Source: an uncultured Bacteroidota bacterium
GTDB taxonomy: Bacteria; Bacteroidota; Bacteroidia; AKYH767-A; 2013-40CM-41-45
Length of the DNA stretch: 56,594 bases
Reading direction: 5' to 3'
NCBI GenBank assembly: GCA_937871435.1
Contig: CALMQM010000113.1
Coordinates: 1 to 56,594 of the forward strand
Shown in pieces: positions 4,920-41,457 of the stretch; the first letter of the stretch is position 1; the number at the start of each line of letters is the position of its first letter. Under the pieces are notes generated by a model, which saw nothing but the letters and a program-made list of their open reading frames with translations, was not told where the DNA came from and searched no databases. Made by a program: the position numbers and the translations under genes.

Positions 4920-5591
4920 TCATGCATGCCTTAATGCCTCTCTCACACTCAGTGGTTTCAAGGAGTGAGATTCTACAAACTTTTTCACTGTTTTCATGTC
5001 TGTATAAGCATATTGACGGAGCGCCCAGCCAATTGCTTTTTGATGAAAAAATTCTTTCGACTCCAGGTGAGGAAGGATCGACATAAATAAAAGATCTACA
5101 TCAGTTTTATCACGATACTTCAATTGAAAAATCATTGCTGTCCTGTTGAGCCACATATTTTTGCTTTTCATCCATTCCATGGTTTTTTTTCTTTTTCTCT
5201 CCGGAAATTTCTGAAAATAGTATCCGACCAATGTGGAAGCAATGTAATCTACACTATCCCACCACGAATTGCTTACAATTAATTCTTCGAATAATTCAAG
5301 AATATTTTTATCCCATATTTTTTTGTTACGAAATAATAGTTCAAAAGCGAGATAATGCATTTCACGCTCCTTCTGTTTCCAGAGCCATTTCACGCCTTTT
5401 ATCTGATCTTCTTGTGAAATATTTTTTAGCTGTGTTAAATATGGTTTAAGAATTTCCTTCCTGATTGGTTTTTTTATTCCAAAAAATATAAATTTATCCT
5501 TCATATAAGTCTGCATTGCTAATGAATTTACGTCTGAGGCATGTTGACTATATTCTTCGCGGATGCTTTTTAGGACATTTAATATTTCCAT
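4920..5591 (-). CDS. AlkD-like DNA alkylation repair protein
   Basis: At 223 residues it matches the usual length of the AlkD/AlkC HEAT-like family, which excises N3- and N7-alkylated purines. Visible hallmarks are FFGIKKPIRKEILKPYL near the N-terminus, the helical-repeat segment WWDSVDYIAS with its conserved Trp and Asp, and the C-terminal QKAIGWALRQYAYTD, the most conserved segment of the family. It is cytoplasmic with no signal sequence. The gene converges on the DNRLRE gene and is divergent from the AT-hook gene, separated by 165 bases that contain the promoter of the latter. Confidence 0.88.
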   Translation of the reverse strand: MEILNVLKSIREEYSQHASDVNSLAMQTYMKDKFIFFGIKKPIRKEILKPYLTQLKNISQEDQIKGVKWLWKQKEREMHYLAFELLFRNKKIWDKNILELFEELIVSNSWWDSVDYIASTLVGYYFQKFPERKRKKTMEWMKSKNMWLNRTAMIFQLKYRDKTDVDLLFMSILPHLESKEFFHQKAIGWALRQYAYTDMKTVKKFVESHSLKPLSVREALRHA

Positions 5592-5690: not shown

Positions 5691-5723
5691 TTGTACAAAT
5701 CAAACAGAGTTATGTATATTTGA
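5691..5723 (+). promoter_or_regulatory. Candidate promoter of the AT-hook repeat gene
   Basis: TATATTTG at 5716-5723 is a perfect TAnnTTTG -7 box, with TTG at 5691-5693 upstream. The 22-base spacing is longer than the 19-20 seen at rpmH. The implied leader before the ATG at 5757 is about 25-30 bases. Confidence 0.5.
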
Positions 5724-5756: not shown

Positions 5757-6260
5757 ATGGCAAAAAGAAAACCAGGTCGTCCACCTAAGTCTGCGGGTCC
5801 CGGACGTCCACCCAAGCACAAAGGTCCGGGTAGGCCTCCCAAAGCCAAAGGTCCCGGAAGACCTCCTAAAGCCAAAGGTCCCGGAAGGCCTCCAAAGAAA
5901 CGTGGTCCCGGTAGACCACCGAAAGCAAAAGGACCAGGTCGCCCACCACTGCACCGCGGACCAGGTCGCCCGCCACTGCATCGCGGACCGGGTCGTCCTC
6001 CACTGCATCGTGGGCCAGGTCGTCCACCTAAAAAACGCGGACCAGGACGTCCTCCTAAAGCTGAATCGATCAGACATTCCAAAGTATCAGCAAACGATCT
6101 CGGAAAGTTCATTGATTTGCAAAGTAAGATTTTAGATGTTCAGCGTGAAGTATACAAACGTACCGGACGCTTTGATTCAGAAATGCACAAACAATTCACC
6201 GAGAATTTCAGCAGTATTGATAAACTGATTTCAAACGTAGCCAAGTTTTTCGAAGCTTAA
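5757..6260 (+). CDS. AT-hook-like GPGRPPK repeat protein, probable DNA-binding architectural factor
   Basis: The first 101 of 167 residues are eleven copies of a nine-residue unit with invariant core PGRPP and basic flanks (GPGRPPKAK, GPGRPPKKR, GPGRPPLHR). This is very close to the AT-hook of HMG-I/Y proteins, whose Gly-Arg-Pro core lies in the minor groove of AT-rich DNA. The last 66 residues are non-repetitive, charged and predicted by eye to be helical (KFIDLQSKILDVQREVYKRT). They resemble the histone-H1-like C-terminal helices of some Bacteroidota small proteins, which could mediate dimerisation. No enzyme domain is present. It is a single-gene unit with its own promoter and a strong terminator. 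Function as a nucleoid protein is an inference. Confidence 0.75.
   Translation: MAKRKPGRPPKSAGPGRPPKHKGPGRPPKAKGPGRPPKAKGPGRPPKKRGPGRPPKAKGPGRPPLHRGPGRPPLHRGPGRPPLHRGPGRPPKKRGPGRPPKAESIRHSKVSANDLGKFIDLQSKILDVQREVYKRTGRFDSEMHKQFTENFSSIDKLISNVAKFFEA
5769..6059 (+). repeat. 27-base tandem coding repeat, 11 units of a 9-residue AT-hook-like motif
   Basis: Each unit encodes x-x-Gly-Pro-Gly-Arg-Pro-Pro-Lys/Leu. Codons vary between units (GGTCGTCCACCT, GGACGTCCACCC, GGTAGGCCTCCC), so protein sequence is conserved more than DNA. Units 7-9, ending Leu-His-Arg, are nearly identical in DNA and look like a recent expansion. Confidence 0.93.
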
Positions 6261-6290: not shown

Positions 6291-6324
6291 AAAAAGAGCA
6301 TGCATCAAAGCATGCTCTTTTTTT
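6291..6324. terminator. Bidirectional intrinsic terminator between AT-hook and NTF2-like genes
   Basis: The arms AAAAAGAGCATGC (6291-6303) and its complement (6310-6322) form a 13-base-pair stem with a six-base loop, flanked by runs of A and T on the two sides. It serves the plus-strand AT-hook gene and, read in reverse, the minus-strand NTF2-like gene whose stop codon it overlaps. Confidence 0.85.
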
Positions 6325-6697
6325 ATGAATGATAAACTCTGCTCGATTGAATTTTTCCCTGTTTGATTTCGAGTACTTCAGCAATCATCATCGGATTTTC
6401 TCCTTCAACCGTCCTCAGATACTCCATCACTATCCTGTCTTCCGACGAAGTAAGAGTTTGCACAATGTAATGAAGTGTCGGTAATCGATGAAACGCATCT
6501 GCCCACCATTTTCTTAATTCATTTTTACCACTGATCCATCCTTCCGTTTCCGGTCTGCGTTGTTTTAATTTCGGACTGAAGTGTTTTGCGTCTTCAGCAT
6601 ACAATTCAAGCAAACCGTCCAGATCTTTTGTGTTAAAACAATCAAACCAGTTATAGGCGATCTCCTCGTTTGTCAATACATCTTTCATTTCTTTCAT
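6323..6697 (-). CDS. SnoaL/NTF2-like family protein
   Basis: The 124-residue length and the pattern of an N-terminal helix (NWFDCFNTKDLDGLLELYAED) followed by curved strands fit the NTF2-like alpha+beta barrel fold shared by ketosteroid isomerases and SnoaL polyketide cyclases. GWISGKNELRKWWADAF and the closing EVLEIKQGKIQSSRVY strand are typical of the nuclear transport factor 2 family. The fold serves either as a small-molecule enzyme or a binding module; no clear catalytic Asp pair can be assigned, so no reaction is proposed. It is cytoplasmic, monocistronic, and shares a terminator with the AT-hook gene. Confidence 0.7.
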   Translation of the reverse strand: MKEMKDVLTNEEIAYNWFDCFNTKDLDGLLELYAEDAKHFSPKLKQRRPETEGWISGKNELRKWWADAFHRLPTLHYIVQTLTSSEDRIVMEYLRTVEGENPMMIAEVLEIKQGKIQSSRVYHS

Positions 6698-7079: not shown

Positions 7080-7631
7080 ATGAAAGAATTCAGTTACAGT
7101 TTTATTCAGGAGTGTGAAAACGGGAACAAGCAGTCTCAGAAAATCTTGTTTGAGAAATTGTATGTCCCCATGTTCCGTACCTGTTTAAGATATGTGAATA
7201 ATCAGTCGGATGCGGAAGATTGCCTCATGCGCGGCTTCCTGAAAATGTTCCAGAATCTTTCTTCTTTTCGCTTTGAAGGAGAACACAGTTTATTCGTTTG
7301 GGTGAGAAAAATTATGGTAAATGAAGCTTTGATGTTTCTAAGGAAAAGACATAATTTCTTTTTGTCTCTGGATGCGGAAGTTGAAGATGTGTCAATTCCG
7401 AGTGAAGTAATCATCAATATGGATGCGCAGGATCTGCTACAAAAAATTCAACAATTACCTACCGGATACCGTACCGTATTTAATTTGTTTGTCGTGGAAG
7501 GCTACTCACATCAGGAAATTGCTGTTGAGTTGGGGATCAGCGAAAATACTAGCAGGACACAACTTGCCAAAGCAAGAATGAAGTTAAAAAAAATGATTGA
7601 AGAAAAGGAGGTTCAAAATGCTTCATGCTGA
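7080..7631 (+). CDS. ECF-type RNA polymerase sigma factor
   Basis: This 183-residue protein has sigma region 2 at about residues 25-90 (LRYVNNQSDAEDCLMRGFLKMFQ, WVRKIMVNEALMFLRK) and region 4 at about 120-175 (LPTGYRTVFNLF, EGYSHQEIAVELGISENTSR with the helix-turn-helix). ECF sigmas direct polymerase to a small regulon and are held inactive by a cognate anti-sigma factor. The next gene starts inside its last codons and encodes a single-pass membrane protein, which fits that arrangement. Region 4 resembles the Bacteroidota sigma-70 group described next to unknown-function membrane genes; the signal it responds to cannot be read from the sequence. Confidence 0.9.
   Translation: MKEFSYSFIQECENGNKQSQKILFEKLYVPMFRTCLRYVNNQSDAEDCLMRGFLKMFQNLSSFRFEGEHSLFVWVRKIMVNEALMFLRKRHNFFLSLDAEVEDVSIPSEVIINMDAQDLLQKIQQLPTGYRTVFNLFVVEGYSHQEIAVELGISENTSRTQLAKARMKLKKMIEEKEVQNASC
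7605..7611 (+). promoter_or_regulatory. Strong Shine-Dalgarno AAGGAGG for the anti-sigma gene
   Basis: A perfect AAGGAGG lies six bases before the ATG at 7618, inside the end of the sigma gene. Bacteroidota rarely use such sites, and it decides this start over an in-frame TTG at 7597. Confidence 0.75.
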
Positions 7632-21968: not shown

Positions 21969-21978
21969 TCAGTAGGTT

Positions 21979-22027
21979 GGTTGTTGGTTGTTGGTTGTTG
22001 GTTGTTGGTTGTTGGTTGTTGGTTGTT
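21979..22027. repeat. Heptanucleotide array GGTTGTT, seven perfect units
   Basis: Seven identical copies of GGTTGTT run without interruption, ten bases before the GTG of lptG. This is a cyclic permutation of the unit in the 105-209 array. Confidence 0.95.
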
Positions 22028-23239: not shown

Positions 23240-23295
23240 TGAAGAGTGAATGGTGAAGTGAGAACGGTGAAGTGTGAACTGTGAAGAGTGAATGT
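23240..23295. repeat. Heptanucleotide array TGAAGAG/TGAATGG type, eight units
   Basis: Eight 7-base units in phase: TGAAGAG, TGAATGG, TGAAGTG, AGAACGG, TGAAGTG, TGAACTG, TGAAGAG, TGAATGT. It begins immediately upstream of the tgt start codon and shares its TGAAGAG unit with the array at 41182. Confidence 0.85.
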
Positions 23296-23343
23296 TTTTC
23301 TATTGTCCCGCAGAGTATCTCGATTAAACTAATTAACCCCTCC

Positions 23344-23370
23344 GCCTAATACCTAATACCTAATACCTAA
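23344..23370. repeat. Short TACCTAA heptanucleotide array
   Basis: Three full TACCTAA units preceded by a six-base partial unit. This is the same motif as the large array at 248-380, 23 kb away. Confidence 0.85.
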
Positions 23371-23420
23371 TCAAAGCTTCATCAACAAACGAGCGTTAAT
23401 ATCTCCGCAAATATAGAGAC

Positions 23421-29128: not shown

Positions 29129-29143
29129 TTTTATTTTATTTGA

Positions 29144-29227
29144 GATTCTGGTTCCTGGTTCCGGGTTTTGAGTTTCGGGTTTCGGGTTTCGTGTTTTGGG
29201 TTTTAAGTCTGGAGATTTTGGTTACGA
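29144..29227. repeat. Heptanucleotide array GTTTCGG/GTTTTGG type, twelve units
   Basis: Twelve phased 7-base units: GATTCTG, GTTCCTG, GTTCCGG, GTTTTGA, GTTTCGG twice, GTTTCGT, GTTTTGG, GTTTTAA, GTCTGGA, GATTTTG and GTTACGA. The first base of every unit is G, and the second unit, GTTCCTG, also occurs in the array at 105-209. Confidence 0.85.
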
Positions 29228-29284
29228 AAAGAAAAAACTGCCTGGTCGTAACTTAATTCCTGCTAATAAATATTATAAACAGTA

Positions 29285-29319
29285 ACCAACAACCATCAAC
29301 CAACAACCAACAACCAACA
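29285..29319. repeat. Heptanucleotide array ACCAACA, five units
   Basis: Units ACCAACA, ACCATCA and three more ACCAACA copies end six bases before the stop codon of the SRPBCC gene. This is the reverse complement of the GGTTGTT-type unit found elsewhere. Confidence 0.9.
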
Positions 29320-29324
29320 AGCCT

Positions 29325-41101: not shown

Positions 41102-41181
41102 TACGCCCTTGCATTAGAATAAAGATTTGAAAAAGATTCCTGATAAGTTTAACACATTTTATGTTAAGAAAAGTTTAAAGG

Positions 41182-41258
41182 TGAAGAGTAATTAGTGAAT
41201 AGTGAAGAGTAAATTGTAAATAGTGAAGAGTAAACTGTAAATAGTGAAGAGTAGATAG
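41182..41258. repeat. Heptanucleotide array TGAAGAG/TAAATAG type, eleven units
   Basis: Eleven phased units alternate TGAAGAG with TAAATAG, TAAATTG, TAAACTG, TAATTAG, TGAATAG and TAGATAG. TGAAGAG recurs exactly every 21 bases between 41203 and 41251, so a three-unit higher-order repeat exists. Confidence 0.85.
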
Positions 41259-41303
41259 GTAGTTATTAATTGGTAGTTTGAATAATGCATAAGAAATATT
41301 CTT

Positions 41304-41457
41304 CCACCAACCAACAACCACCAACCAACAACCAACAACCACCAACCAACAACCACCAACCTCCAACCAACAACCACCAACCAACAACCAACAACCACCA
41401 ACCTCCAACCAACAACCACCAACCAACATCCACCAACCAACAACCAACAACCACCCT
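41304..41457. repeat. Heptanucleotide array CCAACAA/CCACCAA/CCTCCAA, 22 units
   Basis: The largest array: 22 units in perfect phase, using three main words in a quasi-regular order (CCACCAA, CCAACAA, with CCTCCAA at two places). The pattern CCACCAA-CCTCCAA-CCAACAA-CCACCAA occurs twice, 42 bases apart. Frames through it remain open on both strands because the unit has no stop codon; those frames are not genes. Confidence 0.95.

Follow-up and report, generated by a model that had tools for sequence, protein, structure and literature searches.

What kind of protein is encoded by a small gene made largely of PGRPP repeats in an uncultured Bacteroidota bacterium, and what might it do? The window analysed here is a whole stretch of 56,594 nucleotides. 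The ORF at 5757-6260 on its forward strand starts with ATG and encodes a small and strongly basic product of 167 residues, which a sequence-only reading had described as an eleven-fold array of AT-hook cores. The locus is laid out as follows.

5757..6260, + strand: ORF of 167 residues (pI 11.9, net charge +34), putative variant AT-hook array followed by a predicted helical C-terminal module
5769..6059, + strand: eleven units of 9 residues with the core PGRPP, charge about +33, secondary structure predicted to be absent
5931..6011, + strand: units 7-9 (GPGRPPLHR three times), the most recent duplicates, with silent differences only
6060..6257, + strand: non-repeated C-terminal module of 66 residues, about 50% identical in two relatives
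6090-6164, + strand: predicted helix 1, residues 112-136
6177-6254, + strand: predicted helix 2, residues 141-166
5691..5722, + strand: possible Bacteroidota-type promoter TTG-N21-TATATTTG, a pattern that is not above chance window-wide
6291..6322, + strand: intrinsic terminator hairpin with a 13-bp stem, a 6-nt loop and a T run (z = -6.4)
4920-5591, - strand: DNA alkylation repair enzyme
6323-6697, - strand: SnoaL-like protein
7080-7631, + strand: ECF-type sigma factor

The eleven-fold repeat is indeed present in the 167-residue ORF. The array spans residues 6-101, with GRPP cores at residues 7, 16, and so on to 97, and the spacing between successive cores is exactly 9 residues in all ten intervals. 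PGRPP is invariant in all eleven units, while its five positions use 3, 2, 4, 3 and 4 distinct codons, which indicates that the core is under purifying selection as protein. Comparison of the whole 9-codon units gave a pS of 0.70 and a pN of 0.26 (pN/pS = 0.37). With a fixed core, changing codons and pN below pS, the array appears to be old and maintained at the level of the protein. Units 7-9 are the youngest copies, having 22-25 of 27 bases in common, compared with 11-23 for other unit pairs. The proposed recent duplication of middle units thus holds for these three, whereas the proposed alternation of Lys-Arg and His-Arg is inexact, since units 1-11 end in SA, HK, AK, AK, KR, AK, HR, HR, HR, KR and AE.

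Whether these units match the AT-hook profile depends on one residue per unit. Neither the window protein nor its six-hook relative in genome G009 matches the Pfam AT_hook profile (PF02178) at E <= 10. The GRP tripeptide is found in 11 of 11 units, and in nearly all of them a K or R lies no more than 3 residues away from it, on one side or both. Replacing GRP by alanine is a standard way of disabling AT-hooks, for example in Swi2 (PMC10164574). The residue before GRP is Pro in every unit of the window protein, and the units therefore lack the RGRP core. In the HMGA-DNA complex, RGR is inserted into the minor groove, and its first Arg makes a key contact there. The orthologue in genome G007 passes the Pfam profile, with 17.6 bits at the protein level, where the cut-off is 17.4, and 20 bits in the genome search, and its hook RGRGRPPKA aligns in register with RGPGRPPKA of the last unit in the window protein. 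Exchanging Pro for Arg before GRP in silico caused AT_hook to match 10 stretches of the window protein (E = 2.9e-10), and the opposite exchange, Arg to Pro, abolished the match of the orthologue. Both exchanges reveal that one position per unit decides the Pfam match. PGRP and RGRP units also stand side by side in single arrays of related genomes, namely in L021 (KRGPGRPPG ... KRGRGRPRK ... KRGRPKK) and in the tail of L018. An AT-hook-like nature appears well supported by homology in register, and the units are best called putative variant AT-hooks that are homologous by register and lack the first Arg of the RGR insert. What survives of the sequence-only reading is the GRPP core, with an in-register orthologue that passes Pfam, but not a classical hook, as Pro takes the place of the first Arg.

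The sequence-only reading had not described the C-terminal part, which is free of repeats. AlphaFold predicted a two-helix hairpin for these 66 residues with moderate confidence (pLDDT 75, pTM 0.46, alignment of 3 sequences). The whole protein reached a pLDDT of 61, and the array was predicted without secondary structure. Searching the PDB structures with the helical module returned only generic helix pairs (VIA-align Z up to 7.8, Foldseek E >1), and the window protein had no sequence-based match among solved structures. It matched neither the CarD nor the HU family of Pfam, and its only non-hook part is this segment of all-helical prediction. A function is not readable from the predicted helix-pair fold; our guess is that the hairpin may self-associate.

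We searched for relatives with the whole protein and with a profile of its C-terminal part, covering 11 genomes of the taxonomic family, 42 of the order, 395 of the class and 395 of the phylum, as well as phages, plasmids and IMG/VR. The contigs of 84,980 GTDB species were covered by a pattern-seeded search, which is hence less sensitive. The only convincing relatives were two, in G009 and G007, which belong to one other genus (g8) of the same family. The G009 protein (L002) has 183 residues and six GPGRPP units spaced 18-19 residues apart by linkers of the type GTGTGTYKK. The G007 orthologue (L003) has 91 residues, with one RGRKPK near its start and one RGRGRPPK. In the C-terminal part, the two proteins share 51-52% identity with the window protein, and it is this part that defines the family. 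Hook number (2 in G007, 6 in G009 and 11 in the window) and spacing vary among the three members, and the core is kept. The sequence-only reading had named a homolog search as the test that could overturn it through a GRPP core that is not conserved; the core is retained in both relatives. The gene is present in 3 of the 11 family genomes and absent from 8, which argues against a core nucleoid protein. Phages and plasmids yielded no relative (a loose phage search with the orthologue reached only E 0.5), nor did IMG/VR, and there was no match to defence families.

Weaker candidates were set aside. PHROG 3330 appeared at E 0.03 with the orthologue, and a class-wide search gave weak scattered matches, none of them in this taxonomic family. 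C-terminal matches in G094, G157 and G350 (E ~0.01) were judged to be chance, as was a weak one in G531 after its frame was read. The tandem-PGRPP matches in G215 and G226 either contained stops or had no such protein among the ORFs, and were likewise judged to be chance. Pfam zf-DBF (13.9 bits with 24.8 needed) and an NCBIfam glycerol-3-phosphate dehydrogenase model (14.6 against 491) are noise. A collagen-like reading is ruled out because Gly does not occupy every third position, and a secreted proline-rich peptide because the sequence has no hydrophobic signal peptide.

We then consider the gene surroundings. From their placement, none of the neighbours could share an operon with the hook gene. 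The terminator expected downstream is found in the 13-bp stem at 6291-6322; it is probably bidirectional, as the symmetry of its A-run and T-run and its position between convergent genes suggest that it may also serve 6323-6697. The strong promoter claimed alongside it is not demonstrated: sigma-70 matches upstream reach 9/12 at most, and the window holds 10 copies of the Bacteroidota-type pattern where 7.7 are expected. In both g8 genomes, the hook gene sits between mutY and the HU gene (L002, L003, L044, L047). The HU gene is highly conserved, and downstream follow a TPR gene and then an apparent RNase G gene. In the genome that contains the window, mutY and HU are direct neighbours on another contig (C101), with no hook gene between them, which shows that the position of the gene is not conserved. 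The adjacency in both g8 relatives fits a role at the chromosome weakly, because the HU of the window's genome lies on that other contig without a hook gene.

The sequence-only reading had also pointed to AT-rich intergenic stretches and heptad arrays as possible targets. Neither suggestion gained support. The window has 39.5% GC, and its A/T runs lie within ~20% of the first-order Markov expectation, about what such a composition gives. This one 56-kb window does hold many tandem arrays whose period is 7 bases (108-212, 255-383, 21976-22027, 23240-23371, 29139-29320, 41181-41453), with units such as GTTGGTT/AACCAAC, TACCTAA, CCTAATA and relatives, so that they share the period and not the unit. 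We found no A-tracts of the kind preferred by AT-hooks in the four arrays checked (108-212, 255-383, 21976-22027, 41304-41453), which leaves the heptad arrays unsupported as targets of the hook protein. A/T runs do not exceed 2-3 bases in arrays of the GTTGGTT/CCAACAA type, and the TACCTAA arrays offer only the TpA-containing TAATA or TTAATA; the array at 41181-41258 holds A/T runs of 6 bases, such as TAATTA and TAAATT. Most of these heptad-array sequences are poor targets for AT-hooks.

On the whole, we consider it reasonably probable that the protein is a multivalent DNA-binding protein of variant AT-hooks, joined to a helical module for self-association or partner binding, and possibly nucleoid-associated. 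It would probably coat or bridge DNA. Each PGRPP unit may follow the minor groove of A/T-rich DNA as an extended chain and would insert one Arg, against two in the classical RGRP hook, as known in general from the HMGA-DNA complex. With one inserted Arg, single units should bind weakly, and the array would bind by avidity. An extended stretch of nine residues would span about one DNA turn, which means that a single molecule could occupy ~100 bp or tie separate duplexes together. The helical module would self-associate or recruit a partner. The outcome would be an architectural protein, either nucleoid-associated or a co-regulator, with an avidity set by hook number (2, 6 or 11).

Other readings of the same data should be weighed. 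The protein might be a general polycation that binds RNA, the ribosome or any polyanion without preference for A/T or the minor groove, in which case the PGRPP repeat would be a flexible, basic extension of a helical protein. We hold this to be unlikely, though it deserves consideration: 101 residues that are predicted to be disordered carry a charge of +33, and Pro at the place of the first Arg removes both a key minor-groove contact and the Pfam match. However, a bare polycation does not need an invariant PGRPP amid free synonymous change, and the identical core at a different spacing in G009, together with the classical hook in register in the G007 orthologue, speaks against it. Rather less probable is a transcription co-regulator, whose functional part would be the helical module, binding RNA polymerase or a regulator, with the hooks serving only to concentrate it near a few A/T-rich promoters. 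No part is better conserved than the C-terminal module, which persists even next to two hooks in G007, and CarD offers a parallel in that its non-hook domain carries the activity; yet the neighbouring genes are not conserved, and no partner fold is recognisable. The narrow distribution, with no convincing relative found beyond the 3 of 11 family genomes, would agree with a repeat ORF that has no function or has expanded spuriously. This last reading is made unlikely, to the point that we give it very little credence, by the C-terminal part conserved in two other genomes, the purifying selection on the core and the terminator that the gene has of its own.

Returning to the favoured reading of a variant AT-hook protein, we compared it with known systems. 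HMGA and Drosophila D1, which has 10 hooks of the PF02178 type and bundles satellite DNA (PMC5957525), resemble the window protein in the GRP core, the basic flanks, the large copy number within a disordered basic chain and the non-hook C-terminus. The window protein differs from them by Pro before GRP in all units, a strict head-to-tail period of 9 residues, a C-terminus that is predicted to be helical where theirs is acidic, and a bacterial host. CarD of Myxococcus xanthus, with four RGRP hooks in an HMGA-like domain, is likewise bacterial and combines a hook array with a folded protein-interaction domain. In contrast, the window protein has no CarD/CdnL domain (which binds RNA polymerase and is N-terminal in CarD) and no acidic segment; its domain order is reversed, and it carries eleven variant hooks. 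H-NS and Lsr2 may work in a similar manner, pairing a helical association part with a disordered hook-like DNA contact, whereas no sequence relationship to them was found and they have one hook per subunit against eleven here. In the literature searched, bacterial multi-AT-hook proteins were represented by CarD and passing mentions only, and the motif GPGRPP was not found.

Small basic hook-array proteins are scattered in this Bacteroidota order: L015 (G019:C485), L016 (G018:C40), L021 (G001:C40), L004 (G004:C10) and L038 (G008:C5). The eight-hook L015, which also has a C-terminal domain, scores 64 bits with PF02178. They come from the same order or family and some contain PGRPP, but their spacing is irregular, their units are mostly classical RGRP, and their non-hook parts differ from each other and are unrelated to that of the window protein. 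Hook arrays seem to have been gained repeatedly in this order. Meanwhile, we notice AT-hooks on MetK (S-adenosylmethionine synthetase), in C-terminal tails of ~70-90 residues with 1-5 hooks, examples being GKRGRPRK and KRGPGRPKKRGRPRKYK. Three of the genomes that encode them belong to one genus, and a fourth, separate case comes from another family (L018/L101, G054:C139; L073/L020, G021:C6; L074, G014:C6; L075/L030, G017:C62), and the 26 other MetK loci that we read have no such tail. Our literature search found no paper on hook-tailed MetK, whose tail could tether SAM production to DNA.

Bacterial AT-hook proteins (CarD) and ten-hook proteins (D1) are known already, so the window protein varies a known idea. 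The protein is bacterial and restricted to one lineage, and its array of variant AT-hooks is unusually long and keeps a strict period. A bolder proposal, which we regard as improbable, is that PGRPP arrays form a distinct bacterial DNA-reading module, in which n weak single-Arg hooks, with a 9-residue period close to one helical turn, would measure or bridge a set length of A/T-rich DNA, and hook number, varying from species to species, would act as a tuning knob. If the favoured reading is true, the multi-hook architecture of HMGA and D1 would also exist in bacteria, where one residue per unit hides it from profile libraries, and the family would provide a natural series of 2, 6 and 11 hooks on one tail for relating hook number and spacing to DNA affinity and bridging.
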